A stretch of DNA of 58,520 nucleotides from Alicyclobacillus sacchari. Lineage in GTDB: Bacteria; Bacillota; Bacilli; Alicyclobacillales; Alicyclobacillaceae. Both the position numbers and the translations under genes were made by a program. The stretch covers positions 1-58,520 of the forward strand of contig NZ_SORF01000014.1 in assembly GCF_004366795.1 (NCBI RefSeq). The letters are read 5' to 3'. This document shows, piece after piece, positions 2,752-18,488 of this stretch; within the stretch, counting starts at the first letter, position 1, and each line of letters starts with the position of its first letter. The notes beneath the pieces are model-generated. The model had not been told where the DNA came from. It did no database searches and was given only the letters and a program-made list of their open reading frames with translations.

Positions 2752-4245
2752 ATGCTGAATTTGGTTGCTGTTGATCTGGGAGCCTCCAGTGGGCGTATGA
2801 TGGTTGGTCAGTATGACGGCCGCGCTTTGACACTCACCGAACATGAGCGTTTTTCCACTCTCCCCGTGACGAGCGGAAGATGGTTGCACACGAACATTCA
2901 GTTTATCTTCGAAAGAATGCTCAAGGGATTGGTACGCAGTGCCACGCACGTTGGTGTGGTATCAGCCGTCGGCATTGACAGTTGGGCGGTTGATTTCGGG
3001 CTTATCGATCGATTCGGTAGCCTGATCGACCACCCTCGTCATTACCGCGACGAGCGCCATGCGCAAGCAATGAAGGCTGTTGTGGAGCGAATTGGCATTC
3101 ATCGTCTGTTTCAGGAGACGGGCATTCAAATCCTTCCGTTCAACACCCTTTTTCAACTTTACGGGATTCAAATGGAAGAACCAAACGTGTTCGATCGCGC
3201 CGCTACCCTCTTGTTGTTACCTGACTTACTGAACTATATGTTGACGGGCGAGATGCGTGCCGAATGGACGAATGCGACGACCACCCAGATGATCCGAGTC
3301 CAAACGCGCTCTTGGATGAATGACCTGCTACAAGAACTGGGATTACCCACAACGATCCTGCCAACCATCGCACAACCTGGCAGTGTCTTGTCGAGGTTGG
3401 CACCTATGCAGCGCGGTATGCATGAAAACCTATGCGATGCGAAGGTAGTGCACGTGGCTTCGCACGATACGGCTTCAGCTGTTGCAGCCGTTCCTGATCA
3501 CGCTGATCCCTATCTCTATATCAGTTCGGGTACGTGGTCATTAGTCGGCACAGTCGTACAACGTCCAATTACAACTCCATTGGCGGAGCACTACAACTTC
3601 TCGAATGAGGGCGGTATCGGCAATTATCGCTTCTTGAAGAATGTTATGGGTCTCTGGCTTATTCAGGAGATTCAGCGTGAGGTGCAAGCCGGTGGTCAGG
3701 TGGCAGACATTCATACACTGCTGCAATTAGCAGAACGGGCCCGGCCGTTCCCGTTTGTCTTGGATCCTGACGATCCGCTTCTGTTACATCCCGCCTCGAT
3801 GGTGCGCACGATTCATGAAATCTGTGTGCAGACAGGTCAACGGCCCCCAGCTGAACTAGGGGAACTTGTACGAGGCGTGCTAGAATCCCTGGCCTTCAAA
3901 TACCGCACCGTGTTGTTAGAACTTCAAGAGGTGACGGGGTGTACCTTTTCTCGTGTGCACATCGTCGGAGGCGGATCGCAGAACCAGTTGCTGTCGCAGT
4001 TTGCTGCGAACGCGACAGGATGTCCCGTCATCACGGGCCCGGTGGAGGCGAGTGCGCTGGGGAATGTGATGTTACAGCTGGTTGCACTTGGTGAATGTAA
4101 GTCGGTCTCCGAAGCCAGAGAGGTCGTCTTGCGTTCCGTCGCCACTGCTTTGTATGTTCCGCAAAGTGCCGAGGTGTGGCAAGAGAAGTATTCTGCGTTC
4201 CAACAAGTTGTCCGCCGCCAGGCGGCTTCCAGAAAGGCTATCTAA
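2752..4245 (+). CDS. rhaB: L-rhamnulokinase
   Basis: It phosphorylates L-rhamnulose to L-rhamnulose 1-phosphate with ATP in the cytoplasm. The 497-residue length and domain order fit the FGGY sugar-kinase family. The N-terminal phosphate-binding loop reads DLGASSGRMMVG (residues 6-17), the middle holds SSGTWSLVG (about 258), and the C-terminal domain has the adenosine-site motif GGGSQNQLL (about 405). The DLGASSGR form is typical of rhamnulokinases rather than xylulokinases or glycerol kinases. The start is fixed by GAGGAGGTGATCCT directly before the ATG. It is the first gene of the operon rhaB-rhaEW-rhaI-MFS-ASRT, and the next gene follows after 22 bases. I am sure of the family, and the substrate is well supported by the neighbours. 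Confidence 0.92.
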   Translation: MLNLVAVDLGASSGRMMVGQYDGRALTLTEHERFSTLPVTSGRWLHTNIQFIFERMLKGLVRSATHVGVVSAVGIDSWAVDFGLIDRFGSLIDHPRHYRDERHAQAMKAVVERIGIHRLFQETGIQILPFNTLFQLYGIQMEEPNVFDRAATLLLLPDLLNYMLTGEMRAEWTNATTTQMIRVQTRSWMNDLLQELGLPTTILPTIAQPGSVLSRLAPMQRGMHENLCDAKVVHVASHDTASAVAAVPDHADPYLYISSGTWSLVGTVVQRPITTPLAEHYNFSNEGGIGNYRFLKNVMGLWLIQEIQREVQAGGQVADIHTLLQLAERARPFPFVLDPDDPLLLHPASMVRTIHEICVQTGQRPPAELGELVRGVLESLAFKYRTVLLELQEVTGCTFSRVHIVGGGSQNQLLSQFAANATGCPVITGPVEASALGNVMLQLVALGECKSVSEAREVVLRSVATALYVPQSAEVWQEKYSAFQQVVRRQAASRKAI

Positions 4246-4267: not shown

Positions 4268-6313
4268 ATGCTTGCGACTCAGGATTCTACTGTTTTGCAG
4301 GAACTCGTCGATCGATCTCGCCGTTTGGCGTCGGATCGTAGCGTGTGTAACTGGGGGGGAGGCAACACGTCGGCGAAGACGACGATGAAGGATCACCTTG
4401 GGCGTGATGTACCGGTGATGTGGGTCAAAGGCAGCGGTTCCGATCTCGCCGATGCGACGGACAAAAATTTTACGGCACTGCGCCTTGAGGACATTTTGCC
4501 ACTCATGGAGCGCGACGCGATGAGTGACGAGGAAATGGTCGACTATTTGACACACTGCATGATGGACAGCAAACATCCACGTTCGTCGATCGAGACCTTG
4601 TTACACGCGTTCGTCCCGTTTCCACACGTGGATCACACACACCCGGACAGCATCATTGCCATCTGTTGCTGCGACAATGGCCGAGAGATAGCGAAGGAGC
4701 TTTTCGGCGATCGCGCCGTTTGGGTGCCATATATTCGCCCTGGATTCACTCTATCGAAGTTGATCGGCGAAACTGTTCGCAACCATCCCAATTGTGAATT
4801 GGTCTTGATGGAGAAACACGGGCTCATCACATGGGGCCATACGTCCGACGAGTGTTACCAGAACACGCTGCGGATCATCCAAGAGGCGGCAGACTACATT
4901 GAACGGCACATCGATCGCGATCGCGTCTTCGGTGGCGTGCAAGTTGCGGCCTTGCCAGCGGAACAACGGCAGGCGGTCGCAGCAGAAGTTTTACCATGGG
5001 TCCGTGGTATTGTCACAGAGTTGCAAGGTGCTGTACTTACCTTCGACGACAGCGCCGACTTCTTGTCGTTTGTAGGCAGTCACGTCGCGCCAACGCTGTC
5101 GCAGATAGGTGCCGCGTGTCCGGATCACCTCGTTCATACGAAGCGCAAGCCGCTTTTCATCGACTGGAATCCCGGGATGGAGGGTGTGGATGCTCTTAAA
5201 GAAAAGTTGCGGACAGGATTGCTTTCGTACCGCGCTGAGTATTGCGCCTATTATGAACGCAATGTCGATTTCGATGTACCCATGCACGATCCGTTTCCGC
5301 GCGTCATCCTTGTTCCGGGATTGGGCGTGATTGGCACCGGCAAGAACAAGAAGATGGCGAACGTGGCGGTGGCTTTGTACCGGCGTGCGGTCGCTGTTAT
5401 GCGCGGTGCGACAGCGTTGGGAAACTTTGTGTCACTCGATGAGAAAGAATCCTTCGATGTCGAGTATTGGCCACTCGAACTGTATAAGTTGACTCTTGCG
5501 CCACCAGAGAAGGAGCTCGCTCGCAAAGTTGTGTACATCACCGGCGGGGCCGGCGGTATCGGCAGCGCTTCTGCGCGGCGTATGGCAGCCGAGGGGGCGC
5601 ATATTGTTGTTGCCGATCTCGCTGTAGACGCGGCGGATCGGCTAGCTCGCGAACTGAACGCACAGTTTGGCGAAGGCACTGCTGTCGGCGTGTCGCTTGA
5701 TGTCACGAATGAAGCGGCCGTTCTTCGCTCATTCCGGGAAGCTGTGCTGGCATACGGCGGGATTGACATCTTCGTTTCGAATGCAGGTCTGGCCAGCTCG
5801 TCGCCCATCGTGGAAACGACGCTAGACGATTGGAACCGCAATGTCAGTGTTTTGGGAACAGGATACTTTTTGACGTCGCGTGAAGCATTCCGTTGTATGG
5901 TCGAACAGGGGCGCGGCGGCTCCATCGTCTTTGTGACATCTAAGAATGCAGTCTATGCGGGTAAGGACGCGGCGGCGTACAGCGCGGCGAAGGCGATGGA
6001 AAATCATTTGGCGCGCTGCCTCGCGGTGGAGGGCGGCGAGCACGGCATTCGTGTGAACACGGTGCTGCCGGATGCAGTGCTGCAGGGATCGAATATTTGG
6101 AATTCCGCTTGGCGCGATGAGCGCGCGAGAGCATACGGCATTGATCCGGAACAGCTTGAAGAACACTACCGCAAACGCACGATTCTACACGTGAACATCA
6201 CCACCGATGACATTGCGGAAGGGATCTTATTCTTTGCTTCCAATCGATCCGCCAAGACGACCGGCTGCATGTTAACCATCGATGGCGGTGTGGCTGCTGC
6301 ATTTCCACGTTGA
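4268..6313 (+). CDS. rhaEW: Bifunctional rhamnulose-1-phosphate aldolase / lactaldehyde dehydrogenase
   Basis: This 681-residue two-domain enzyme would split L-rhamnulose 1-phosphate into dihydroxyacetone phosphate and L-lactaldehyde, then oxidise the lactaldehyde to L-lactate. The N-terminal part (about 1-400) is a class II aldolase with NWGGGNTSAK near residue 28 and a metal-binding segment HVDHTHPDS near 122. The C-terminal part (about 415-680) is a short-chain dehydrogenase with the nucleotide-binding TGGAGGIGS motif near 425 and a YSAAK catalytic pair near 570. This architecture is that of RhaEW/YuxG-type proteins. The ATG at 4268 follows AGGAGG by seven bases; the frame is open further upstream but overlaps rhaB. 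If the product is lactate, the lutABC genes at 15.4-18.3 kb provide the next step. Confidence 0.9.
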   Translation: MLATQDSTVLQELVDRSRRLASDRSVCNWGGGNTSAKTTMKDHLGRDVPVMWVKGSGSDLADATDKNFTALRLEDILPLMERDAMSDEEMVDYLTHCMMDSKHPRSSIETLLHAFVPFPHVDHTHPDSIIAICCCDNGREIAKELFGDRAVWVPYIRPGFTLSKLIGETVRNHPNCELVLMEKHGLITWGHTSDECYQNTLRIIQEAADYIERHIDRDRVFGGVQVAALPAEQRQAVAAEVLPWVRGIVTELQGAVLTFDDSADFLSFVGSHVAPTLSQIGAACPDHLVHTKRKPLFIDWNPGMEGVDALKEKLRTGLLSYRAEYCAYYERNVDFDVPMHDPFPRVILVPGLGVIGTGKNKKMANVAVALYRRAVAVMRGATALGNFVSLDEKESFDVEYWPLELYKLTLAPPEKELARKVVYITGGAGGIGSASARRMAAEGAHIVVADLAVDAADRLARELNAQFGEGTAVGVSLDVTNEAAVLRSFREAVLAYGGIDIFVSNAGLASSSPIVETTLDDWNRNVSVLGTGYFLTSREAFRCMVEQGRGGSIVFVTSKNAVYAGKDAAAYSAAKAMENHLARCLAVEGGEHGIRVNTVLPDAVLQGSNIWNSAWRDERARAYGIDPEQLEEHYRKRTILHVNITTDDIAEGILFFASNRSAKTTGCMLTIDGGVAAAFPR

Positions 6314-6333: not shown

Positions 6334-7563
6334 ATGAAAGCATGGAGTGACGAAGCTTACACCCTGTTCGAGATTCAACAGCGAGATCGGGGAATCGACG
6401 TGGACGCTGCCGTACGGCGGCTGTCCGCGCTTGCCGTGGAGACGCCTTCGTGGGGATACGGCGACTCGGGAACGCGTTTCAAGGTGTTTCAGAAAGAGGG
6501 CGTACCGCGCAATCCCTACGAAAAGATTGACGATGCGGCTGTTGTTCACCAGTTGACTGGTGCATGCCCATCGGTCGCCATTCACATTCCGTGGGATAAA
6601 GTGGATGATTACCAGTATCTGCGCGATTACGCCCTGCAGCGCGGCCTGCGCATCGGCGCTGTCAATCCAAACCTGTTCCAGGACGACGATTATATGCTCG
6701 GTAGTGCAACGAATGCGGATGCCGTTATTCGCAACAAGGCGATCCGTCATATGTTGGAGTGCGTTGACGTCATGCGTGAGGTGGGGTCCAGTGCATTAAG
6801 CCTGTGGTTTGCCGATGGCACGAATTATCCGGGGCAGGGACACATTCGTCGACGCAAGCGCTGGTTGCAGGAGGCCCTCACCGAAGTGTACGCCGCACTC
6901 GATCCTGGGATGCGTATGCTTATCGAATACAAGTTTTTTGAACCAGGTTTCTATCATACGGATCTCGCCGATTGGGGTATGGCTCTCCAAGCCGCCAACC
7001 AATTAGGGGGACAGGCGCAGGTTTTGGTGGACATCGGACACCATGCGCCGGGTACGAATGTTGAGCATATCGTTGCCTATTTGCTTGATGAGGGCAAGCT
7101 TGGCGGGTTTCATTTCAACAGCCGTAAGTATGCAGATGATGACTTGATTGTCGGTGCGATGAATCCCTATGAGCTGTTCCTGATTTTCTATCAAATTCTC
7201 GATGCCGAGCGCGATACGGATGGATTGGTGGCACGTACAGCCTATGAAATCGCATACATGATCGATCAGAGCCACGTGATCGAGCCTAAGATTCCCGCCA
7301 TGATTCGCTCGGTGTGCAACATTCAAACGCAGTTTGCAAAGGCTTTGCTGATTCAACATGAGGAGTTACAGGACTTACAGGCCAAGAACGACGTGTTGGG
7401 TGCTGAACATGCTGTGCGTACCGCCTTTGAGTTTGATGTAACTCCGCTTGTGTGCCGGATGCGCGAAGAACGGGGATTGCCGATGGATCCCATGCGTGCA
7501 TATTACGAGAGCGGATATGCCGAGAAGATCTGCGAGCGCGGTGTCGGAGGTAGCGGATGGTAA
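6334..7563 (+). CDS. rhaI: L-rhamnose isomerase (RhaI type)
   Basis: It interconverts L-rhamnose and L-rhamnulose, the first step of the pathway. The 409-residue protein belongs to the TIM-barrel xylose-isomerase-like group that contains the Pseudomonas stutzeri-type isomerase, not the E. coli RhaA type. Metal and substrate residues are seen in LIEYKFFEPGF (about 195), VDIGHHAPGTNVEH (about 233) and FHFNSRKYADDD (about 257). The ATG follows AAAGGGGGATGTTAA, 20 bases after the aldolase/dehydrogenase stop. Its place between the other rhamnose genes supports the substrate, although enzymes of this group can be loose in sugar specificity. Confidence 0.88.
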   Translation: MKAWSDEAYTLFEIQQRDRGIDVDAAVRRLSALAVETPSWGYGDSGTRFKVFQKEGVPRNPYEKIDDAAVVHQLTGACPSVAIHIPWDKVDDYQYLRDYALQRGLRIGAVNPNLFQDDDYMLGSATNADAVIRNKAIRHMLECVDVMREVGSSALSLWFADGTNYPGQGHIRRRKRWLQEALTEVYAALDPGMRMLIEYKFFEPGFYHTDLADWGMALQAANQLGGQAQVLVDIGHHAPGTNVEHIVAYLLDEGKLGGFHFNSRKYADDDLIVGAMNPYELFLIFYQILDAERDTDGLVARTAYEIAYMIDQSHVIEPKIPAMIRSVCNIQTQFAKALLIQHEELQDLQAKNDVLGAEHAVRTAFEFDVTPLVCRMREERGLPMDPMRAYYESGYAEKICERGVGGSGW

Positions 7564-7658: not shown

Positions 7659-9011
7659 TTGACGGCGAAAGCATCAGATCAATTAGAGCGTGAGGAAGTT
7701 GCGACTCGTGAGCAATGGAAATGGACAGCTGTAGCTTCCATGGCTAACTACATCGATGCCGGTTCCATTGTTGCTGGTGGTTCTGGGTTGAGTCTGTGGG
7801 CTGCCCATTTTCACATGAGCAATGGGCTCATCGGTATGCTTGGCGCGTTTAGTTCGAATGCTATTTCTGCTGGAGTTGGAGCCTTGATTGGCGGGCGTAT
7901 TTGTGACGTGTACGGTCGTAAGAAGATATACGCTTGGGATTTACTTGTCTATGCATTTGGTATATTATGGATCATTTTTGCAGTAAAGATGTGGATGTTG
8001 TTTGTGGGCTACGTGCTCGTAGGCCTCGCGGTTGGGGCAGATGTCCCGGCTTCGTGGACACTGATTGCAGAGTTGGCTCCAAAGCGTTCACGTGGCAAGA
8101 TGAGCGGATTTGCGCAAGTGTTATGGAACCTTGGACCTGTCATCACTCTGCTTTTGGCTTTAGCTCTATCAAATCTAGGTTTGTTAGGTATACGCCTACT
8201 GTTTCTACACCTGTTGGTCCTTGCAATGGTGACATGGGCCATGCGCCGAGGCGTTGTCGAGTCGGAGCGATGGAGGGTTGCCGTGCAACGCGAACGTGAA
8301 TCAAATAAGGGTATGCAAGGGAAACGCCATGGGATACAGGAAGTGTTTGCCTCACGGGCGAATGTGGGTGCTTTCGTGTTTTGTATTCTCATGTATGGGA
8401 TATGGAACCTCGTCGCTGGAACCAACGGTTTTTTCCTTCCATTTATCCTGCGCACGGTAGGATCCGAAACGCAGGCGACGAGTGTAGAATTGCAGTGTTT
8501 TAACTTTCTTCTCACGGTCTTGGCCACGATTTTTGTCTTTATGCCACTGAATGATCGAGTGAATCGCCGTGGGTTATTTGCCATTTCCTCCGTGTTCCAG
8601 GTGACTGCGTTTTTGTTATTTGTGTTCTTTCACTTAAACACGACCATTGCTTTAGCCAACATTGTCTTGTATGGAATTGCATTTGGGTTTGGCCAGCAAC
8701 CATTCTTCCAGTTGTGGTCAGGAGAGCTTTTTCCAACTCGTATACGTAGCACTGCACAAGGTTTGATGTTTGCCGTGGTCCGCATTGGCTTGGGTCTCTG
8801 GAGCTTTTTCGTACCAATCCTAACTGCAGTCGGGTTTCACAAGCTAGCATTGATTCTAACTTGTATGCTCGCCGTGAGTGGGCTAATTGGCGTTACGTTT
8901 GCGCCCCATACGGAAGGAAAATCACTGGAGGAAATTGAGGCTGAACGCTTGGCAGCATCTCACGAGACCTACTTAAGGACCAATACATCAATTCACACCA
9001 GCAGTAAATGA
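7659..9011 (+). CDS. MFS sugar transporter
   Basis: This 450-residue protein has about twelve hydrophobic segments and is probably a proton-linked sugar importer. It shows sugar-porter features: GGRICDVYGRKKIY after segment 2, PKRSRGKM after segment 4, and FPTRIRSTAQG in the C-terminal half. The TTG at 7659 is chosen because AAAGGAGG lies seven bases upstream; the open frame extends ten codons further without a better site. It stands in the rhamnose operon, so L-rhamnose is the likely substrate. The adjacent ABC importer operon could then serve the same sugar with higher affinity or a related sugar. Confidence 0.8.
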   Translation: MTAKASDQLEREEVATREQWKWTAVASMANYIDAGSIVAGGSGLSLWAAHFHMSNGLIGMLGAFSSNAISAGVGALIGGRICDVYGRKKIYAWDLLVYAFGILWIIFAVKMWMLFVGYVLVGLAVGADVPASWTLIAELAPKRSRGKMSGFAQVLWNLGPVITLLLALALSNLGLLGIRLLFLHLLVLAMVTWAMRRGVVESERWRVAVQRERESNKGMQGKRHGIQEVFASRANVGAFVFCILMYGIWNLVAGTNGFFLPFILRTVGSETQATSVELQCFNFLLTVLATIFVFMPLNDRVNRRGLFAISSVFQVTAFLLFVFFHLNTTIALANIVLYGIAFGFGQQPFFQLWSGELFPTRIRSTAQGLMFAVVRIGLGLWSFFVPILTAVGFHKLALILTCMLAVSGLIGVTFAPHTEGKSLEEIEAERLAASHETYLRTNTSIHTSSK

Positions 9012-9042: not shown

Positions 9043-9405
9043 ATGGCCGACATGTGCAGATGGTACATCGCTGATGGCTATTTGCCATCTTTCAGCACAG
9101 GGCAACTTGAGAGTCATGAGTCACTTTGCGTACTGAATACCACAGAGCAAGCTGCCATGTTACATTTGACAGTCTATTTTGAGGATCGAAGTCCGATAAT
9201 GGGTTTTCGCTTCAATTGTCCAGCCAAGAGAACGGTGCATGTGCGTTTGGATGCTGTGGAAAATGATGATGGTGAGTCTATACCACGTGGAGTTCCCTAT
9301 GCCATGGAGATTGAATCAACAGTTCCAGTTGTAGTGCAACACTCTAGGATGGATACAAGCCAGAAAGCCTTGGCATTATTTACGACCATGGGGTTTTCGC
9401 AATAA
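9043..9405 (+). CDS. ASRT-family (sensory rhodopsin transducer-like) protein
   Basis: This 120-residue soluble protein has no signal peptide or membrane segment. It matches the family of the Anabaena sensory rhodopsin transducer: an N-terminal WYIADGYLP, then SHESLCVLNTTEQ, LTVYFEDRSPI, a basic turn CPAKRTVHVRLD, IPRGVPYAMEIES and the end motif VPVVVQHSRMD. The family is a small beta-sandwich, and comparative work has proposed that it binds sugars or related small molecules. No rhodopsin gene is present in the window, so a photosensory role is unlikely. It is the last gene of the rhamnose operon, 31 bases after the MFS gene and just before a terminator. A role in sensing or binding rhamnose or an intermediate is inference. 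Confidence 0.82.
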   Translation: MADMCRWYIADGYLPSFSTGQLESHESLCVLNTTEQAAMLHLTVYFEDRSPIMGFRFNCPAKRTVHVRLDAVENDDGESIPRGVPYAMEIESTVPVVVQHSRMDTSQKALALFTTMGFSQ

Positions 9406-9408
9406 TTC

Positions 9409-9460
9409 GTAAGGCAAGTTTCGGATTACCAATATCGGTATCTCGAAACTTGCTCTTTAC
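9409..9460 (+). terminator. Terminator of the rhamnose operon
   Basis: A long hairpin pairs GCAAGTTTCG (9414-9423) with CGAAACTTGC (9444-9453). An inner helix (GATTACC with GGTATC) and outer GTAA/TTAC pairs extend it. It begins four bases after the ASRT stop and separates this operon from the ABC operon. The T-tract is short (TCTTTAC). Confidence 0.7.
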
Positions 9461-9587
9461 GGTTTGTGCAACATAGCTTTAGTCCATACGATTGCTTCAA
9501 CTAACCATCGATACTTTGCGTCGATCGAAACAAACGCTCAGAATGACTGTTTATGTCTATTTCATATGTTTTAGTTCCGTATTCGTA

Positions 9588-9623
9588 TTTACAGTTGGTG
9601 TTTTATGTGTATAATCAATGTTG
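9588..9623 (+). promoter_or_regulatory. Promoter of the ABC sugar importer operon
   Basis: TTTACA (9588-9593) and TATAAT (9610-9615) are 16 bases apart, about 60 bases before the ATPase gene. The -10 lies in TGTATAATCAATGTTG (9608-9623), nearly identical to 2695-2710 in the rhamnose promoter. TGTTTATGT at 9548-9556 matches the reverse complement of 2655-2663. Co-regulation of both operons is the simplest reading. Confidence 0.55.
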
Positions 9624-9676: not shown

Positions 9677-11188
9677 GTGCCTGAGGTAGTGTCTGCCACT
9701 GGGCTTATGAAAAGCTTTTCGGGAGTGACTGTGGTTAAGGGCATAGACATTTCGCTAAACGCCGGAGAGGCGCACGCATTAGTTGGCGAGAATGGTGCCG
9801 GAAAGTCTACAGTTATTAAGGTGCTGTCGGGTGTACATCAACCGGACTCTGGGGTCATCAAGTTTGATGGAAGAGAGGTTACCATTGCCAATCCAGCACA
9901 TGCGCATCAGCTAGGAATTTTTACCGTCCATCAGGAACCTGCTCTTATGCCTGAATTGAGTGTTGCCGAAAACGTATTTATGGGGTTTCACCCACATCGT
10001 CATATAGGTCCAATTCGTTGGGTTAGGATGTCCGAGATGAACGCTAGATGCGAAGCTGTGTTTCAAAGACTTGGAATCCAGATGGATGTTCGAGAAAGTG
10101 CCGCAAGATTAACTATCGCAGAGCAACAGATGGTTGAGATTGCCAAATCACTAATCCATGATGTGAAAGTTCTCATTTTAGATGAACCAACAGCTACATT
10201 ATCGCTACATGAAACGCAAACTCTATTTTCGATTGTTAAACGCTTAATGAGCCAAGGGACAGCAGTTCTTTTTGTATCGCATCGATTGCATGAGGTCTTT
10301 GAACTGTGTTCTCGTGTGACTGTTATGAGAGATGGGCAGATGGTAGCACAAAGATTAACATCGGAGCTGACAGACGAACAGTTGGTAAACTTAATGGTTG
10401 GCCGGAAAGTGGATCTCTCGTTATCCAGACCGTATATACGACAAGCATCATCCCCTTTATTGAAAGTTCGTAGTTTTAACAAACCACCTTATTTTCAGGA
10501 TGTTAACTTCGAGATTTTTTCAGGTGAAATAGTTGGACTTGCGGGACTAATTGGTGCTGGAAGAACAAACGTGGCTGAAGCACTTTTCGGCATAGCGCCG
10601 GCGGATAGCGGAGAGGTGTATCTAGAAGGGCAAAGTCTGACCATTCGAAACGTGCAGAGCGCGATTGACCATGGCATTGTGTACGTTCCAGAGGATCGAC
10701 ATAAGCACGGGGTTGCGCTGTCGATGTCTATTCATCGAAACATAACACTGCCTAGTTTGCCCCGTACGTCTAAGTGGGGAATTTCTAGATTTGAAGACGA
10801 GAGTAATTTGGCGCGTCAACTCAAGGAGAGTCTTCGCATTAAGGCGAGTTCAACAGAGCAGACGGTTTCTGAACTATCAGGAGGGAATCAGCAAAAGGTC
10901 GTATTTGGTAAGTGGTTGGCACGCAAGCCGAAACTGATGATTTTAGATGAGCCAACTCGAGGTGTAGACGTCGGAGCCAAAGGCGAGATATATCGTGTCA
11001 TACGTGAACTCGCGAACGATGGAGTGGCGGTCCTTGTCATATCTTCGGATCTGCCTGAAATCCTAACACTCGCAAATCGTATTTTGGTTATGCGCGAAGG
11101 GAGACTAGCAGGTTGTCTGAGTCGCGATGAAGCATCGGAGCAGAGTATTATGCGCTACGCTACGGGCGTTTCCTTGGTGTCACCGTAA
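9677..11188 (+). CDS. Sugar ABC transporter ATPase (RbsA/RhaT type)
   Basis: This 503-residue double ATPase would power sugar import. The first nucleotide-binding domain (about 5-240) has Walker A GENGAGKST, a degenerate signature region (LTIAEQQMVEIAKSL) and Walker B VLILDEPTATLS. The second (about 255-495) has GLIGAGRTN in place of a full Walker A, the signature LSGGNQQKV and Walker B LMILDEPTRGVD. This asymmetry is usual for ribose-type ATPases. The GTG start follows GGAGTGTGGTAGT. It is followed by two permeases and a binding protein, the gene set of rhamnose (rhaSTPQ) and ribose importers. Because the pathway genes alongside are for rhamnose, rhamnose is the likeliest substrate, but it is not proven. 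Confidence 0.88.
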   Translation: MPEVVSATGLMKSFSGVTVVKGIDISLNAGEAHALVGENGAGKSTVIKVLSGVHQPDSGVIKFDGREVTIANPAHAHQLGIFTVHQEPALMPELSVAENVFMGFHPHRHIGPIRWVRMSEMNARCEAVFQRLGIQMDVRESAARLTIAEQQMVEIAKSLIHDVKVLILDEPTATLSLHETQTLFSIVKRLMSQGTAVLFVSHRLHEVFELCSRVTVMRDGQMVAQRLTSELTDEQLVNLMVGRKVDLSLSRPYIRQASSPLLKVRSFNKPPYFQDVNFEIFSGEIVGLAGLIGAGRTNVAEALFGIAPADSGEVYLEGQSLTIRNVQSAIDHGIVYVPEDRHKHGVALSMSIHRNITLPSLPRTSKWGISRFEDESNLARQLKESLRIKASSTEQTVSELSGGNQQKVVFGKWLARKPKLMILDEPTRGVDVGAKGEIYRVIRELANDGVAVLVISSDLPEILTLANRILVMREGRLAGCLSRDEASEQSIMRYATGVSLVSP

Positions 11189-11206
11189 ACGACGAAGGAC
11201 TGTGGG

Positions 11207-12193
11207 GTGAATCGGGTGAGGACTATTCATCAAAGTTGGCAAAGAGTATTGAGAAGGCGTGAAGCTACGTTGGTGGGCTTCATGACTGTAATGCTACTAG
11301 TACTTATGATAACAAGTCCTAGTTTTCTCGCACCGAGTAATCTTATTAATGTCTTGTTAAATACTGTAACCATAGGGATACTTGCTTTGGGTGAATGCGC
11401 TGTCATCATAACCAAGGGAATCGATTTATCTGTAGGTTCAACAATGGGGCTGGTCACGTTGGCCGTAGGAACCCTCATTTTGTCAGGAATACCCGTATGG
11501 GTGAGTCTTGCCATAGGGCTGGCTCTAGGGCTATTGGCAGGTTGTGTGAATGGCATCATGGTAAGTCTTGTAAAGCTACCTCCAATTATCGTTACCCTAG
11601 GAACATTGAGTGTATATTCAGGACTTATGTATACGGTGACAAACGGACAGTGGATTCAAAATCTCCCTAGCTCGTTGTCTTCGATCGGTAACTTTAAGAT
11701 TTGGTTTCTGCCTGGGCCAGTATTCATTCTGTTGATGTGTTTGGTTTTTATGTCAATGTTTCTGCAACGGACAATTACGGGCCGTTACGTGTATGCAGTA
11801 GGGAATAATGTAACGGCAGCACGATTGGCAGGGGTTCAGGAGAGAAGAATTATTTTTATTCCATACGCAATCACGGGCGTTTTGGCAGCAATTGCAGGAA
11901 TTCTCTACCTTGCATACAACGGATTTGCGACTCCAACTACAGGTTCTGATCTCAACTTGGAAGCCATCGCTGCTGCTGTGATTGGTGGTACCAACGTATT
12001 TGGTGGTAAAGGTACGGCGCTCGGAGCTGTCTTAGGTGCCATTTTATTGGGCATTATCTCAGAGGCTCTGGTCTTTTTCCACTTACCAGCCGTGTGGAAT
12101 GAGGCGGCAGAAGGATTCATCATTCTAGTTGCAGTCATCTCGGACTCAGCGGTTACCAAGCGCGCGGCTCCAAAGGGAAGGGTGGTTTCATGA
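11207..12193 (+). CDS. Sugar ABC transporter permease 1
   Basis: This 328-residue RbsC-type membrane subunit has about eight to ten transmembrane segments. The conserved GIDLSVGSTMGL occurs near residue 71, and the late cytoplasmic motif GGTNVFGGKGTALGAVLGA near 265 contacts the ATPase. The GTG start at 11207 has GAAGGA upstream. Its last codons overlap the ATG of the second permease (ATGA), so the two are translationally coupled and probably form a heterodimeric channel. Confidence 0.86.
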   Translation: MNRVRTIHQSWQRVLRRREATLVGFMTVMLLVLMITSPSFLAPSNLINVLLNTVTIGILALGECAVIITKGIDLSVGSTMGLVTLAVGTLILSGIPVWVSLAIGLALGLLAGCVNGIMVSLVKLPPIIVTLGTLSVYSGLMYTVTNGQWIQNLPSSLSSIGNFKIWFLPGPVFILLMCLVFMSMFLQRTITGRYVYAVGNNVTAARLAGVQERRIIFIPYAITGVLAAIAGILYLAYNGFATPTTGSDLNLEAIAAAVIGGTNVFGGKGTALGAVLGAILLGIISEALVFFHLPAVWNEAAEGFIILVAVISDSAVTKRAAPKGRVVS

Positions 12194-13197
12194 AACGTAG
12201 AGGATCTCTGTGGTCGGCCACAGTATTTGGAGTCTTCCTGGTGGAGATGATAGTGTTTTCGGCTGTAGCTCCTGGTTTTCTTAACTTCGAAAACTTGATG
12301 TCATCGACTAACAACTTTATGGCGGTTGGTGTCATGGCTCTGAGCATGACGTTCGTCATCATTACTGGAGGGATTGATCTTTCAGTCGGCTCTATGATGA
12401 GTTTGTGTGGAGTATCGATGGGACTGTTCTGGCAACATGGTCTCAATATTTGGATAGCAGCTATTCTAGCATTGGTGCTTGGCGCCCTGTTGGGGTTTAT
12501 CAATGGACAAATCATTGTTCGAACAGGTATACAACCGCTAATCGCAACTTTAGCGACATTATTTATTTACGGTTCGTTGGCAATGGTTCTTGCGGGTCAA
12601 GGGGATGGGTCTATTTACGGTTTCCCTCAGAGTTACTTGTTCTTAGGCACGGGCAGTCTATTCAGGATCATGCCGGTTCAGTTGCTTGTCTTTAGTTTCC
12701 TGGCATTGGTGTTTGGATTCGTTCTTCAGCGAACGAATTACGGTAGGCGTGTCTATTTTATAGGGAACAATGAAGCCGCAGCGCTTTATAGTGGTGTGCG
12801 TGTACAGCATGTGAAGACATACACGTATGTGATCTCCGGTTGCATGTCTGGCGTGGCTGCCGTATTAATGGGATCCTACTTCGCTTCTGTTCGCGGTGAC
12901 ATGGGTCTCAATTACGAGCTCACCGTAATCACTGCCTGCCTGGTCGGGGGAGTGAATGTCTTTGGTGGCTCCGGCACCATTTTCGGCGTCGTTGTAGGTG
13001 CTTTTATCCTTGGCATGCTGCAACAAGGACTAAATATGTTGAATGTTTCTTCCGTAGAACAATCCATTGTTACCGGACTAATTCTGATTGCAGCCGTCGG
13101 TATACAGCAGATGAGTGGACTATTCTCCCGCCGAACCCGTCGCATTAAAAAAGATCGCATGAGCGACTTAGGCTTGGTGAGCACTGGGCGGGAGTAG
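12190..13197 (+). CDS. Sugar ABC transporter permease 2
   Basis: This 335-residue RbsC-type permease is related to the preceding gene, with GGIDLSVGSMMSL near residue 59 and GGVNVFGGSGTIFGVVVGA near 252. The start overlaps the first permease by four bases. Having two different permease genes, rather than one homodimeric RbsC, resembles the rhamnose importer arrangement (RhaP and RhaQ). A short basic C-terminal tail follows the last membrane segment. Confidence 0.86.
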   Translation: MKRRGSLWSATVFGVFLVEMIVFSAVAPGFLNFENLMSSTNNFMAVGVMALSMTFVIITGGIDLSVGSMMSLCGVSMGLFWQHGLNIWIAAILALVLGALLGFINGQIIVRTGIQPLIATLATLFIYGSLAMVLAGQGDGSIYGFPQSYLFLGTGSLFRIMPVQLLVFSFLALVFGFVLQRTNYGRRVYFIGNNEAAALYSGVRVQHVKTYTYVISGCMSGVAAVLMGSYFASVRGDMGLNYELTVITACLVGGVNVFGGSGTIFGVVVGAFILGMLQQGLNMLNVSSVEQSIVTGLILIAAVGIQQMSGLFSRRTRRIKKDRMSDLGLVSTGRE

Positions 13198-13206
13198 TCA
13201 TAGATG

Positions 13207-13224
13207 GACGCCTGTGAAGGCGTC
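13207..13224 (+). promoter_or_regulatory. Intercistronic hairpin before the binding-protein gene
   Basis: GACGCC (13207-13212) and GGCGTC (13219-13224) form a small stem with a six-base loop in the 59-base gap between permease 2 and the binding protein. There is no T-tract. Such stems can raise the level of the downstream binding-protein message; here this is only a suggestion. Confidence 0.3.
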
Positions 13225-13256
13225 TACAGAATTGAAGTGAGAAAAGGGGAATATTC

Positions 13257-14306
13257 ATGAGAGACGTGAAGAAGATCGGAGCCGGATTGCTCAGTGCGGT
13301 GGCTATTTCTATGGCCGTCGCAGGGTGCGGCTCACCATCTCAGTTGACGCAGTCAACGAAGGCAGGCCAGATAGGCAATGCCAGCACAACACAAAAGCAG
13401 ATCAAGGTAGCTCTGATACCAAAGGAAATTGGCATACCCTACTTTACCGGTGCCGATCAGGGTGCTCAGTTGGTGGCAAATAGACTGCATATCAGTCTCA
13501 CGTACAATGGACCTACGACTGCTAGTGCCTCCGACCAAGTGTCTATGATTAATAGTTACGTTGCACAGGGTTATAATGTTATCGCAGTTTCTGCGAACGA
13601 TCCTACTTCTCTAGCTCCGGCATTGAAAGCTGCGATGCAGCGAGGGGTCAAAGTCATCACGTGGGATTCCGATGTAATTCCTTCGGCACGTCAGTACTTC
13701 GTGGATCAAGCCACCGCTGAAGGGATTGGGTCTACGTTGGTTGAAATTACTGCAAATCACTTTAAAGGACAAAAGAATGTGCAAGTCGGTATACTCTCGT
13801 CTACCCCGACTAACCCGAATCAGAACTCATGGATTGCGGTGATGAAAAAGGTCATTGCGAGTAAATACCCGAATCTGCACATTGTGACGATCCAGTACGA
13901 CCAGGAACAGCCTGATGTTGGCCTGACAGCTGCCGAAAATATGATAAAGGCCTATCCTAACATGAAGGCCATTATTTCTCCGGACTCGGTTGGAGTTCCG
14001 GCAGCTGCCGAGGCTGTAGAGAAATTAGGATTGAAGGGTAAAATTTATGTAACTGGATTGGCGGATCCGATTCAGATGAAGCAGTATGTTAACGACGGCA
14101 CGGTTCAACAATTTGTGCTGTGGAATGTTCCTGAATTGGGTGAACTTACGATGTACGTTGCACGTGCTCTCGCTGACGGGACGATGCCGACCTCAGGCGA
14201 ATTTAAAGCTGGTGGTCTAGGAACCTTTAAGGTTCAAGATCATACGGTATTGCTCGGAAATCCAACTGTCTTTACTAAGGCGTCGACTGATAAAGCAAAC
14301 TACTGA
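13257..14306 (+). CDS. Sugar ABC transporter substrate-binding lipoprotein
   Basis: This 349-residue periplasmic-binding-protein-like lipoprotein would capture the sugar outside the membrane. The signal peptide ends in the lipobox SMAVAGC (Cys near residue 23), followed by a Ser/Thr/Gln-rich linker. The mature part begins with IKVALIPKEIGIPYF and has the Peripla_BP_4 pattern (SANDPTSLAPALKAAMQRG, then VITWDSD, then GILSSTPTNPNQ). The fold group is that of ribose, rhamnose and autoinducer-2 binding proteins. AAAGGGGAATATTC precedes the ATG. It is the fourth gene of the importer operon. Confidence 0.88.
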   Translation: MRDVKKIGAGLLSAVAISMAVAGCGSPSQLTQSTKAGQIGNASTTQKQIKVALIPKEIGIPYFTGADQGAQLVANRLHISLTYNGPTTASASDQVSMINSYVAQGYNVIAVSANDPTSLAPALKAAMQRGVKVITWDSDVIPSARQYFVDQATAEGIGSTLVEITANHFKGQKNVQVGILSSTPTNPNQNSWIAVMKKVIASKYPNLHIVTIQYDQEQPDVGLTAAENMIKAYPNMKAIISPDSVGVPAAAEAVEKLGLKGKIYVTGLADPIQMKQYVNDGTVQQFVLWNVPELGELTMYVARALADGTMPTSGEFKAGGLGTFKVQDHTVLLGNPTVFTKASTDKANY

Positions 14307-14416
14307 TTGTTACGAGGAACCTGGTATGCTCTTGTTTGTACAGATAGATCTGCAGAGTATGGGCGGTTTGCCTGACCTCGATTCACAAGTCTAAGATAGT
14401 ATGTAAAACAGAAGTT

Positions 14417-14457
14417 GTGAGCAAGGAGAGAACTGGATAAACTCCCTCCTTGCTCAC
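14417..14457 (+). promoter_or_regulatory. Hairpin between importer operon and deoR-type gene
   Basis: GTGAGCAAGGAG (14417-14428) pairs perfectly with CTCCTTGCTCAC (14446-14457) around a 17-base loop, 22 bases before the regulator ATG. It could terminate the importer transcript, although no T-tract follows. Alternatively it is a palindromic operator or leader structure of the regulator gene. Confidence 0.4.
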
Positions 14458-14479
14458 ATGAGGAAGTGAATCGTACAAA

Positions 14480-15244
14480 ATGTTACCGGCGGAGCGTCAT
14501 CGGGCGATCTTACAATACCTAAACACACGTGGCAGCATTCGCGTTAAAGAATTGAGTCAACTATTCGATGTTACAGAGGAGACTGTTCGGCGGGATCTTC
14601 ATATGCTCGAAGAAGAAGGCAAGCTTCGAAGAAGTCACGGCGGAGCCGTTAAAATTGATGAAGAAACGCCGAGCGAGACGTCCTATCTGATTCGCGAATC
14701 TGAGCATGTACCTGAGAAAGAAATGATCGCGAGACTTGCTGTCAGATACATCGAGCCCGGAGATCGTGTGATTTTGGATGCAAGTACTACGGCGCTGCAT
14801 CTTGCCAGCATCATTCCGGATATGCCGTTGACCGTTTTAACAAACTCGGTGAAAATTGCCTTGGAGATGTCCGGGAAGGACAAAGTTGAGGTGATATCTA
14901 CCGGGGGAATTTTACGCTCGAGTTCTTTGTCTTATGTTGGTCCCATGGCTGAGGATTCGCTATCCAAGTTTCATGTCAACAAAGCGTTTCTGTCGTGTAA
15001 GGGAATACACACTCAGCATGGCTTCACGGAGTCAAACGCGTTGCAGGCGCTCGTCAAGCGCAAAATGATAGATATTGCCGATACCGTCGTTGTGCTGGCG
15101 GATCACAGCAAGATCCAGGTGCAGGACTTTACACATGTTGCAGATTTACGGGAGATTGACTGGTTGATTACGGACGGTGATACGAGCGAAGTGGCTGTTG
15201 CTGCATTTGAACAGCTTGGCGTGAAGGTCGTCCGGGCCCTGTGA
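14480..15244 (+). CDS. DeoR-family transcriptional regulator
   Basis: This 254-residue repressor-type protein probably controls the rhamnose region. The N-terminal winged helix-turn-helix (about 1-58) carries the family pattern RHRAILQYLNTRGSIRVKEL, then TEETVRRDLHMLEEEGKLRRSHGGA. The C-terminal DeoRC sensor domain (about 75-235) has DASTTALHLA and the late LADHSKI motif and would bind a phosphorylated sugar. GAGGAAGTGA lies upstream of the ATG with a rather long spacing. Its position between the two sugar operons and lutABC, and the shared element in both upstream promoters, make local control likely. The inducer is not known; rhamnulose 1-phosphate is a reasonable guess. Confidence 0.85.
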   Translation: MLPAERHRAILQYLNTRGSIRVKELSQLFDVTEETVRRDLHMLEEEGKLRRSHGGAVKIDEETPSETSYLIRESEHVPEKEMIARLAVRYIEPGDRVILDASTTALHLASIIPDMPLTVLTNSVKIALEMSGKDKVEVISTGGILRSSSLSYVGPMAEDSLSKFHVNKAFLSCKGIHTQHGFTESNALQALVKRKMIDIADTVVVLADHSKIQVQDFTHVADLREIDWLITDGDTSEVAVAAFEQLGVKVVRAL

Positions 15245-15436: not shown

Positions 15437-16120
15437 TCATTCCAGATCCGTTAACATGAGTGCCATCACGCGTGCCGGTCCATGCACGCCGATAGTCTGG
15501 TCGTTTTCGATGTCCGATGACCTGCTGGCACCGCTGATAAAGTGATTCGATGCGGCAATCTCACCCTGCCCATGCGCTTGTACCAGTCGCTGTAATGCAT
15601 CGCCAAGGCTTTGTACCAGTTGTGACTCGCGGAGTATGACGACGTGGATAAGCGGGATCTGGTGGACGGTCCGGCCTGACTGTGGCCCGCTGGCTATGAC
15701 GATTGTCCCGGTGTCGGCGATGGCGCACGAGCAACCGGTGATGCCGACATGGATATGGTCAAATGCGCGTCTATCGGTTTGCTCTTCCCAACGTAAAGCA
15801 TGCCAATGTTCAAGTACATCCTCCACATCGATCGGCCAAGGCGCTCGCTTACCCCACGCACCGATTTTATCGGACCCAATGTCGTTCAGCACACGTTCAA
15901 GTCCCGCGCGAAGTTCGTGAACGCTCGCATATTGTTCGATCTCGCCCGCAAGCCCTGTGAATTTCTCGATAAATGACGCAGTTCGAGACGCCTGTGTAGA
16001 TGGCCGATCCGTCCAACATGCAGGTACGCCGATGGCCGTTCGAGGTGAAGGCGGATCGCCAGGCACACGTCCGAGTGGTTTGGCAATTCGTTCGAGAAAT
16101 GTTGTTTTATCCACGCCCAT
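15437..16120 (-). CDS. lutC: L-lactate utilisation protein LutC
   Basis: This 227-residue LUD-domain protein is the third component of the LutABC L-lactate oxidation complex. The core pattern DVLEHWHALRWEEQTDR, then GITGCSCAIADTGTIV (about 130-150), then LIHVVILRESQLV matches the LUD domain shared with LutB. It has no iron-sulfur motifs, as expected for LutC. The ATG follows AAAGGGGA and overlaps the end of lutB by 14 bases. The operon is lutA-lutB-lutC on the minus strand, convergent with the rhamnose-region genes. Confidence 0.88.
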   Translation of the reverse strand: MGVDKTTFLERIAKPLGRVPGDPPSPRTAIGVPACWTDRPSTQASRTASFIEKFTGLAGEIEQYASVHELRAGLERVLNDIGSDKIGAWGKRAPWPIDVEDVLEHWHALRWEEQTDRRAFDHIHVGITGCSCAIADTGTIVIASGPQSGRTVHQIPLIHVVILRESQLVQSLGDALQRLVQAHGQGEIAASNHFISGASRSSDIENDQTIGVHGPARVMALMLTDLE

Positions 16121-17537
16121 TCCCCTTTCTCACAAGCTCGGGCCAAAGTTCGCGGAAAGTGCGTTTAGGCAGGGCAGGAAAGTCGCGGCTCGTCGTCCAT
16201 CCGGCTACGGGGCCAATCTTGGCCCGGATGTAGCCATCATGTGCGAGGGGGAATTGCAGCCTTCTCGCGATCCGGATCGTCGTCTGATAGCGTCCGGCGT
16301 TCCCGAACACTTGCCGAAATGCCCGGAACGCTGCTTTTTCCGCTGGTTTCACATGGCCTGTCGCCACCAATCGCTGGCGCTCGCGTACCAGCATGTCATG
16401 TAGTGGAATCTTCACCGGGCATGCCTCGTAGCAAGCCCCGCAAAGACTTGACGCGTATGGCAGGTCTTGATACGTTTCGCCGTCGTTTAAGAGTGGGGAA
16501 AGTACAGCGCCGATAGGACCCGGGTAAACCGATCCGTAGGCATGCCCGCCAATCTGGCGATAGACTGGGCAAACGTTCAGGCAGGCACCACATCGAATGC
16601 AATGGAGAATGGCTTGAAAATCTGGATCGCCAAGTTGGCGTGACCGGCCATTGTCAAGAATGATCACATGCATCTCTTCTGCACCGTCAGCCTCGTTGTC
16701 GCGCCGCGGGCCGGTGACAATAGACATGTACGTAATCACGTTTTGGCCTGTCGCGCTTTTAGGCAAAAGGTGCGCGAACACCTCGAGATCGGACATCGTG
16801 GGTAGAACCCGTTCCATGCCCATGAGGACGATGTGGGTCTTCGGCATGTTCATCACGAGATCGGCGTTGCCTTCGTTTGTAAACAGCGCTATCGAACCGG
16901 TTTCCGCAATGCCGAAGTTGCAGCCCGTGATTCCGATGTCGGCAGTCAAGTACTCTTGCCGCAGTCTTCTGCGGGCGAAAGCCGCAAGATCACGCGTTTC
17001 GGTCGTGAGTTGTTCACCGCTTTCGGCCTCAAACAGGTCGCGGATTTGTTCGCGGTTTTTGTGAATGGCCGGGATGATAATGTGAGACGGCGTCTCTCCG
17101 GCCAGTTGGATGATGTACTCACCGAGATCGGTCTCGACGACTTGGACGCCCATCTCCTCGAGGTGGTGGTTTAGATGGATTTCCTCGGTCACCATGGACT
17201 TGGATTTTACGGCGCGCTTGGCGCTTTTCGCAGCGGCGATCTCCCGCACGATGTAGCTCGCTTCTTCACCGGTAGCGGCGAAGTGAACGTGTGCGCCGTG
17301 CGCTTCCAAATGTCTGGCGAATTGATCCAGGTAATAGTCGAGATGGGCGATGGTGTGTTGGCGGATCTGTTGTCCGCGCTCGCGCCATGCTTCCCAGTTA
17401 CCAAATTCGCCAGTCACGGCTTGCTTTTTGTTGCGCAGGCGATCTGTCGTAAAATGTACGGCTTTCCGCAAGAAGTCGTCCGCCAGCGCCTGCTGCGCGC
17501 GATCGTGCACGTTGGATGAGCTGTGAGGGGTGCTCAT
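16107..17537 (-). CDS. lutB: L-lactate utilisation iron-sulfur protein LutB
   Basis: This 476-residue protein combines an N-terminal LUD domain (about 60-300, with TADIGITGCNFGIAETGS) with a ferredoxin-like iron-sulfur part. Cluster ligands are CIRCGACLNVCPVY (about 315-328) and CGACYEACPVKIP (about 365-377), and a DUF3390-type tail follows. With LutA and LutC it oxidises L-lactate to pyruvate. The ATG at 17537 is preceded by AAAGGCGGTGA and overlaps the lutA stop (ATGA). The frame is open further upstream but would run into lutA. Lactate from the bifunctional rhamnose enzyme is a plausible substrate source. Confidence 0.9.
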   Translation of the reverse strand: MSTPHSSSNVHDRAQQALADDFLRKAVHFTTDRLRNKKQAVTGEFGNWEAWRERGQQIRQHTIAHLDYYLDQFARHLEAHGAHVHFAATGEEASYIVREIAAAKSAKRAVKSKSMVTEEIHLNHHLEEMGVQVVETDLGEYIIQLAGETPSHIIIPAIHKNREQIRDLFEAESGEQLTTETRDLAAFARRRLRQEYLTADIGITGCNFGIAETGSIALFTNEGNADLVMNMPKTHIVLMGMERVLPTMSDLEVFAHLLPKSATGQNVITYMSIVTGPRRDNEADGAEEMHVIILDNGRSRQLGDPDFQAILHCIRCGACLNVCPVYRQIGGHAYGSVYPGPIGAVLSPLLNDGETYQDLPYASSLCGACYEACPVKIPLHDMLVRERQRLVATGHVKPAEKAAFRAFRQVFGNAGRYQTTIRIARRLQFPLAHDGYIRAKIGPVAGWTTSRDFPALPKRTFRELWPELVRKGNGRG

Positions 17538-18280
17538 GCGTTCACCGCCTTTCCAAGTTGCATGCCTTCCATCAGGAGTTCTGCCAGGTGCATCACGCGC
17601 ACTGCACGATTGGTGCGGCGCAGTCGGCCGCCAATGTTCATCAGGCATCCCATGTCCGTGCCAACCAAGACTTCTGCATCGGTCCTTGCAACGTTTTCTG
17701 CCTTTTCGTCGACCATCGCGCCTGAAATTTCACCCATTTTCACGGCAAACGTCCCCCCGAAGCCACAGCAATCCGTCGCGTAGGGGAGCTCGACGATCTC
17801 GATGTCGTGCACGCCTTGCAGTAACTGCATGGGCTCATCCTTGACGCCAAGCAGCCGCGATCCGTGGCAGGATGGGTGATATGTCACCCGATGCGGAAAA
17901 CGGGCCCCCAGATCCGTGATCTGCAATTGCTTGACCATAAATTGCGAGAACTCGTAGGTTTTGTTTGCCAAGTCCACAGCAGCCTGATGTAGTTGCGGAT
18001 CGTTGGCAAACAACTGGGGATAGTAGTGATGGATCATACCGACACAGGAACCGGATGGACTCACAACGACATCGCTGTCCCGGAATGCGCGCAGGAGTGT
18101 CATGCCGACGTCTCGAGCTTCATCCGTGTATCCGCTGTTGAATGCAGGCTGCCCACAGCATGTCTGTTGAGGCGGGAATGAGACATCACAGCCGCATTCC
18201 TGCAGTATGCGGGTCAATGAAACACCGACGTTTGGAAAGACGCTGTCGACGACACAAGTGATAAACAAGCTGACTTTCAT
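17534..18280 (-). CDS. lutA: L-lactate utilisation protein LutA
   Basis: This 248-residue protein has two cysteine-rich CCG domains typical of LutA and of GlpC/heterodisulfide-reductase-like subunits. The motifs are QTCCGQPAFNSGY (about 38-50), PSGSCVGM (about 74), YHPSCHGSRLLG (about 132) and DCCGFGGTFAVK (about 170). The ATG at 18280 has GGAGGG nine bases upstream; an in-frame extension upstream lacks a binding site. It is the first gene of the lut operon. Confidence 0.9.
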   Translation of the reverse strand: MKVSLFITCVVDSVFPNVGVSLTRILQECGCDVSFPPQQTCCGQPAFNSGYTDEARDVGMTLLRAFRDSDVVVSPSGSCVGMIHHYYPQLFANDPQLHQAAVDLANKTYEFSQFMVKQLQITDLGARFPHRVTYHPSCHGSRLLGVKDEPMQLLQGVHDIEIVELPYATDCCGFGGTFAVKMGEISGAMVDEKAENVARTDAEVLVGTDMGCLMNIGGRLRRTNRAVRVMHLAELLMEGMQLGKAVNA

Positions 18281-18488
18281 CGAGCAACCCTCCAAGCAAC
18301 TCACAAAACATCTAAAAGACCAGAGAGAAAAGGGCCTTGTCGTACATTTCGAATGTTTGCTGCTGATTTGGGATAACGCTTTCATCCTTCATCATAACGC
18401 AAAATGCTAAAGAATGTTTTGAAACTTGAATGCAAACGCATCATAGCAAATAAACAGGCACAAATCAACGTAAACAAAAATCCGTTAG

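Follow-up and report, generated by a model that had tools for sequence, protein, structure and literature searches.

An ASRT-family gene at the end of a predicted rhamnose operon of Alicyclobacillus sacchari, possibly encoding a counterpart of RhaM

The stretch of DNA analysed here (the window) covers positions 1 to 58,520 of the Alicyclobacillus sacchari contig NZ_SORF01000014.1, and encodes a set of rhamnose catabolic genes followed by a gene of the Anabaena sensory rhodopsin transducer (ASRT) family (Table 1). The gaps between rhaB and rhaEW (25 nt), rhaEW and rhaI (20 nt) and the MFS and ASRT genes (31 nt) are short, while that between rhaI and the MFS gene is 95 nt with the MFS start at TTG 7659 (107 nt with a start at 7671), and the gap downstream of the ASRT gene is 271 nt. 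The hairpin after the ASRT stop codon has a folding energy of -26.4 kcal/mol (z -7.9), and none of 200 shuffles was as low. It is absent from the list of a simple terminator scan, which overall was no richer than shuffles. A sequence-only reading of this DNA had placed the ASRT gene at the end of the operon, and the short gaps, the common strand and the hairpin indicate that this assignment holds, with the predicted order rhaB-rhaEW-rhaI-MFS-ASRT. It had also remarked that no rhodopsin is near, and indeed no rhodopsin family was found among the 30 of the 48 listed window ORFs scanned with Pfam.

Table 1. Features of the rhamnose operon and of the second unit, with their positions in the window.
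Feature	Position	Strand	Basis
rhaB, L-rhamnulokinase (FGGY)	2752..4245	+	TIGR02627 453.7 bits, under the cut-off of 527.95; PF00370/PF02782
rhaEW, rhamnulose-1-P aldolase / lactaldehyde dehydrogenase	4271..6313	+	NF006190 1172 bits and TIGR02632 960.2 bits, both above cut-off
rhaI, L-rhamnose isomerase	6334..7563	+	TIGR02635 620.8 bits, above cut-off
MFS permease, sugar-transporter family	7659..9011	+	PF00083, PF07690; likely start TTG 7659 after AAAGGAGG; ORF open from 7629
ASRT-family protein	9043..9405	+	PF07100 149.7 bits; 1nc7 structural match
Hairpin 3' of the ASRT gene, probable terminator	9407..9462	+	Inverted repeat, arms 9414-9433 / 9434-9453
Promoter-like site, second unit	9588..9615	+	TTTACA-16-TATAAT, 11 of 12
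ABC sugar importer ATPase	9677..11188	+	PF00005; AraG/XylG/RbsA models best, below cut-off
ABC sugar permease 1	11207..12193	+	PF02653; LsrC model best, below cut-off
ABC sugar permease 2	12190..13197	+	PF02653; LsrD model best, below cut-off
RhaS-like sugar-binding protein	13257..14306	+	PF13407; TIGR02637 RhaS 279.6 bits, below cut-off; LsrB nearly equal at 270.3
DeoR-family regulator	14480..15244	+	PF08220, PF00455

The second unit (9677-15244) encodes an ABC sugar importer, whose binding protein is RhaS-like, and a DeoR regulator. The 10-mer TGTATAATCA at its promoter-like site also occurs upstream of rhaB, at 2695. A search for an operator common to both upstream regions yielded no more than this 10-mer, located at the -10 box, and some short repeats; the promoter scan as a whole was not enriched (19 sites against 14.3 in shuffles). 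A lactate-utilisation-like set on the opposite strand (15437-18385), encoding a LUD-domain protein, a LutB-like protein and a CCG-domain LutA-like protein, adjoins the rhamnose units. As RhaEW makes L-lactate, this set may complete the rhamnose pathway. Elsewhere in the window, an 18-bp tandem repeat (GGTGGAGGACATCAGCTT) is present in 5.5 perfect copies at 279-377, and a transposase fragment lies nearby (1446-1898).

The ASRT gene encodes a protein of 120 amino acids that matches PF07100 (ASRT, the ASRT-like ASRAH family) over model positions 5-118 of 119 (E 4.5e-44, cut-off 25 bits), i.e. along the whole domain, and the family assignment of the sequence-only reading is thus borne out. It is the only PF07100 match in the window's genome, and PF07100 is its only Pfam match. 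The protein does not match the RhaM family model (PF05336), and no PF05336 match was found in the window's genome. The SHEshChhN signature of the family is present (S24 H25 E26 S L C29 V L N32), as is the early tryptophan (W7). An alignment-based monomer model (pLDDT 91.1) folds into eight strands forming a predicted beta-sandwich; it replaced a single-sequence model (pLDDT 63, Foldseek). Its best PDB match is 1nc7, the Thermotoga maritima protein TM1070 (TMq 0.75, 36% identity over the structural match), and the 19 chains at E <= 0.001 are all TM1070 or Anabaena ASRT. Among the PDB matches there was no enzyme fold, and nothing beyond ASRT itself reached E 0.001.

Residue conservation was followed in two alignments. 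In A1, whose 16 rows include TM1070 and Anabaena ASRT, S24, H25, E26, N32, H66, R68, Q99, R102 and D104 are invariant, and C29 is replaced by serine in L006, itself a rhamnose-operon member. Alignment A2 has 55 rows, namely 52 of the 80 named loci described below (hand-picked, near-copies thinned), the window and two relatives. In all of them S24, H25, E26, C29, N32, E47, D48, R63, T64, H66, Q99, R102, D104 and Q107 are invariant, with arginine kept at R68 in 53. TM1070 is a tetramer in whose pocket an ethanediol molecule touches H25 and C29 (PMC2739507). Going by the strand topology in the literature, one sheet should hold the strands with H25/C29, H66/R68 and Q99/R102, and these residues may form one common pocket.

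The neighbourhoods of ASRT genes were examined in 80 named loci; the search had found 201 relatives, of which these are the best 80. At the bit thresholds used, rhamnose enzymes are encoded in 20 of these best 80 of 201 loci, and none was found in the other 60. A looser rhamnose label had given 25 of the 80, from which L067, L072, L093, L104 and L114 were dropped. Loose cases among the 20 are L042, where other genes lie between, and L083, where the ASRT gene sits in a sulfatase/dehydrogenase run and the rhamnose genes are farther along. By record title, the rhamnose-type loci include Bacillota, one Actinomycetota and three Chloroflexota, two of the latter with the same ASRT. Other ASRT genes stand beside genes of the sulfatase/sugar-dehydrogenase or pectin type: a run of sulfatase and Gfo/Idh/MocA genes is found in 24 to 26 of the best 80 of 201 loci and a GDSL run in 11. 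A frequent setting (L044, L049 and similar ones among L040-L086) combines a Gfo/Idh/MocA dehydrogenase, an AP_endonuc_2 TIM barrel, sulfatases, AraC and an ABC importer, and perhaps serves a sulfated sugar. On the ASRT tree, which has few columns and is poorly resolved, the rhamnose context is scattered rather than confined to one clade; 11 changes are needed, and the starred branches force at least 5.

The association was also seen in whole genomes. In the order set, ASRT is present in 15 of 59 genomes, and RhaEW scores above the family cut-off in 14 of these 15 against 15 of the 44 others (p=6e-5); in nine of the 15, ASRT and RhaEW are no more than 15 kb apart. The fifteenth ASRT genome (G010) retains only the last 26 residues of the protein. 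This genome, of a congener, shows a decayed rhamnose locus (L015 / L029) in which a cut rhaB lies beside the 26-residue ASRT end and the DeoR gene is kept. In a phylum sample of 398 genomes, RhaB (TIGR02627, E <= 1e-90) was called in 18 of the 20 genomes with ASRT against 41 of the 378 without it (p=1.5e-14), and the distance to RhaB is 15 kb or less for only three of the 20 ASRT genes. In this sample the 19 remaining ASRT loci were opened and their neighbours typed in part: they include a rhamnogalacturonan lyase (L116), GH88 (L120), GDSL esterase runs (L117, L118, L121), a class II aldolase (L122) and GH42 (L127), as well as the non-sugar genes acetolactate synthase (L125) and M24 peptidase (L133). 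Further non-sugar neighbours of ASRT are spore germination genes, in Paenibacillus. In L119 the gene order is RhaB-ASRT-RhaA-lactaldehyde reductase, and the alternative isomerase RhaA also accompanies ASRT in L057, L088 and L107. A class-level search, overlapping the order set, found ASRT in 25 of 250 genomes, and four of its loci were opened. Locus L143 (G498:C8:454694-455044) carries an ASRT gene in a rhamnose operon, with one internal TAG in its frame.

Taken together, these data show that the linkage of ASRT to rhamnose genes recurs and is not exclusive. The carbohydrate role envisaged in the sequence-only reading is well supported by the rhamnose genes beside ASRT in Bacillota, Chloroflexota and Actinomycetota loci (best 80 of 201), by its tracking of RhaB in the 398 genomes and by the scatter of the rhamnose context over the tree. 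The expected repeated linkage to sugar genes was found, in 20 of the best 80 of 201 loci, and ASRT also occurs outside it. The specific step suggested there, sensing or buffering with an action on the permease, the isomerase or the regulator, is hypothetical. Linkage to an MFS permease is not conserved: a window-like MFS gene was found in 2 of the 20 rhamnose-type loci (L036, L037; best 80 of 201). The interpretation is thus partly supported: it is sound in direction, but the carbohydrate role is not new, since a sugar-sensing function for ASRT-like proteins was proposed in 2009 by de Souza, Iyer and Aravind, who also described the isomerase-aldolase-kinase neighbourhood (PMC2739507).

A new lead comes from the distribution of RhaM. 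The phylum sample contains 59 genomes with RhaB, of which 18 have ASRT, 18 have RhaM, none has both and 23 have neither (p=3.1e-4; 4.5e-4 without the window's genome, which both the order and the phylum sets contain). Counted by genus, ASRT occurs in 10 and RhaM in 14 of 39 genera, with no overlap (P=0.005). Among the 29 genomes of the order with RhaEW, 14 have ASRT, nine RhaM, one both and seven neither (p=0.0095). This counts as present the RhaM of G019, a 39-residue partial match, and p becomes 0.022 when it is left out. By genus the order gives a weak result (13 genera; ASRT 6, RhaM 6, both 1; P=0.078). In 221 Chloroflexota genomes the exclusion is not significant (p=0.08): 52 genomes have RhaEW and 69 have RhaM; ASRT occurs in six of the RhaEW genomes, two of them with RhaM, and RhaM in 33 of the 46 others. 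Of the 14 genomes run as controls, only that of T. maritima has RhaB without PF05336, and it alone has ASRT. Genomes with ASRT are concentrated in a small number of genera. Nevertheless, one order and the families f3 and f105 each hold both gene types.

At the level of loci, 154 rhamnose markers were examined within 15 kb, the window's operon being counted once. ASRT is near 13 of them, RhaM near 28, and both near none (pooled p=0.065). For the order, phylum and Chloroflexota sets (31, 67 and 56 markers; the last from 102 RhaM rows and 56 RhaEW rows), ASRT is near 9, 2 and 2 markers and RhaM near 6, 14 and 8; these separate tests were not significant (p 0.10, 0.50 and 0.73). A tblastn search for RhaM in the named ASRT loci (best 80 of 201) gave no match, and among the corresponding genomes RhaM occurs in 2 of 20 of the rhamnose type and in 5 of 14 others. 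Both genes occur, at whatever position, in nine genomes: G007 (identical to G673), G677, G680, G685, G689, G692, G702, G837 and G851. Of these, G007, G689, G692, G702, G837 and G851 were opened at RhaM, and in none of these six do both genes lie in one rhamnose operon. In G007 the ASRT gene is in a sulfatase locus (L019) and the RhaM-like gene (L149) is apart from both ASRT and the rhaB-rhaEW-rhaI locus (L150). In G851 RhaM lies within the rhamnose operon (L154) and ASRT at another site (L138), and in the genomes of L076 and L107 RhaM is elsewhere (L147, L148), and no rhamnose enzyme was seen next to it. In two relatives RhaM adjoins the MFS gene, namely L030 (MFS-RhaM-rhaB-rhaEW-rhaI-DeoR) and L031 (MFS-RhaM-rhaEW-rhaI-rhaB-DeoR). 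Their RhaI, RhaEW, RhaB, DeoR and MFS proteins are homologous to those of the window, and the swap of RhaM for ASRT at these loci is therefore not explained by isomerase type.

This alternation speaks more for a chemical action on the sugar than for sensing or buffering, and the polar, enzyme-like set of residues invariant in the 55 A2 rows likewise counts in favour of such an action. The reading preferred here, with a probability of roughly 40%, is that ASRT may be a counterpart of RhaM, not homologous to it, that acts directly on the sugar. L-rhamnose, or a close sugar of the pathway, would be bound in a cleft formed by the S24-H25-E26-x-x-C29 strand together with H66, R68, Q99, R102 and D104. 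Instead of signalling, ASRT would then supply RhaI with the usable anomer, replacing the mutarotase RhaM; this is the least certain step. If ASRT stands in for RhaM, the examined rhamnose operons would be expected to carry one or the other and not both. Mutarotation also proceeds spontaneously. Since it runs by itself, ASRT would be dispensable, in keeping with the rhamnose genomes that lack both genes. The alternation makes a mutarotase-like role testable and is no proof of it.

Nearly as likely is the proposal of de Souza et al. (2009) that ASRT is a soluble sugar sensor, binding rhamnose or an intermediate and tuning a transporter, enzyme or regulator by contact. It accounts for an identical genomic linkage, and the ethanediol in the pocket of the TM1070 tetramer and the reported binding of Anabaena ASRT to its rhodopsin (both in PMC2739507) agree with it. 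The unlike partners of ASRT (MFS, two ABC types, sulfatases, AraC, DeoR and two-component genes) suit a general ligand binder, but a sensor dedicated to protein contact would need one constant partner, and no single one is constant across the best 80 of 201 loci; nor does this proposal predict the alternation with RhaM. Somewhat unlikely, and overlapping with the sensor, is that the alternation is a by-product of shared ancestry and that ASRT has another role in rhamnose use. In its favour are the clumping in genera and the Chloroflexota and locus-level tests, which were weak or null, but both gene types occur inside one order and inside f3 and f105, the swap within the order takes place among homologous rhaI, rhaEW and MFS genes, and the starred branches of the tree force at least five changes of rhamnose context.

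That ASRT is a DNA-binding regulator of the operon, a role put forward for the Anabaena protein at the pec promoter, is quite improbable. The available part of PMC8660804 reports DNA looping and reporter effects for the Anabaena protein, but also a KD of about 10 uM with weak sequence dependence. Of the contact residues R109, Q110 and N113 named there, only Q is kept according to the alignment mapping made here, the R column being S or T in all 55 A2 rows and asparagine standing in the N column of 4 of them, and a DeoR regulator is already at the locus. Least probable is that ASRT binds or detoxifies the L-lactaldehyde from RhaEW: although a conserved cysteine lies near a histidine and ASRT adjoins the RhaEW gene in Paenibacillus, with the bit threshold used, RhaEW was detected in 15 of the named ASRT loci (best 80 of 201), C29 is serine in L006, and RhaEW itself oxidises the aldehyde, according to the available part of PMC3870299.

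ASRT structures have been solved since 2003-2007 (release dates), and the literature examined gives no agreed general function. With the link to sugar operons already in print, the alternation with RhaM reduces the question of function to a short assay. It is doubtful, yet conceivable, that ASRT proteins are sugar mutarotases (anomerases) of a new structural class, acting above all on L-rhamnose, and that the Anabaena rhodopsin partner is a recruited member of an enzyme family. If mutarotase activity proved true, a 'light-signalling' family would be an enzyme family, and the Anabaena result would need rereading. No paper joining 'ASRT' and 'mutarotase' was found among open-licence papers. Rodionova 2013 (PMC3870299) describes RhaEW, RhaI and RhaM, and the words ASRT, DUF1362 and TM1070 are absent from the available part of its text. 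The T. maritima rhamnose operon, induced 27-37 fold on rhamnose, is printed as 'rhaMADBC' in PMC3750489, whose main text contains neither 'TM1070' nor 'mutarotase'. The likeliest bearer of its 'M' would be TM1070.

Compared with known systems, the ASRT protein of the window resembles RhaM/RhaU (PF05336) in that both are small accessory proteins of rhamnose operons, and in L030 and L031 RhaM/RhaU lies beside the MFS gene, as ASRT does here. The two families nevertheless have no sequence match, and mutarotase activity is hypothetical for ASRT. With the Anabaena sensory rhodopsin transducer (2ii7) it shares the family, the fold and the A1-invariant residues, but no rhodopsin is encoded among the 30 window ORFs scanned, and two of the three reported DNA-contact residues are lost. 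The closest parallel in structure, T. maritima TM1070 (1nc7), belongs to the same family with 36% identity and is likewise encoded near a sugar isomerase, aldolase and kinase (PMC2739507), except that uptake there involves the ABC system RtpEFGKL, as given in the accessible part of PMC3750489, while the window has an MFS permease and another ABC importer.
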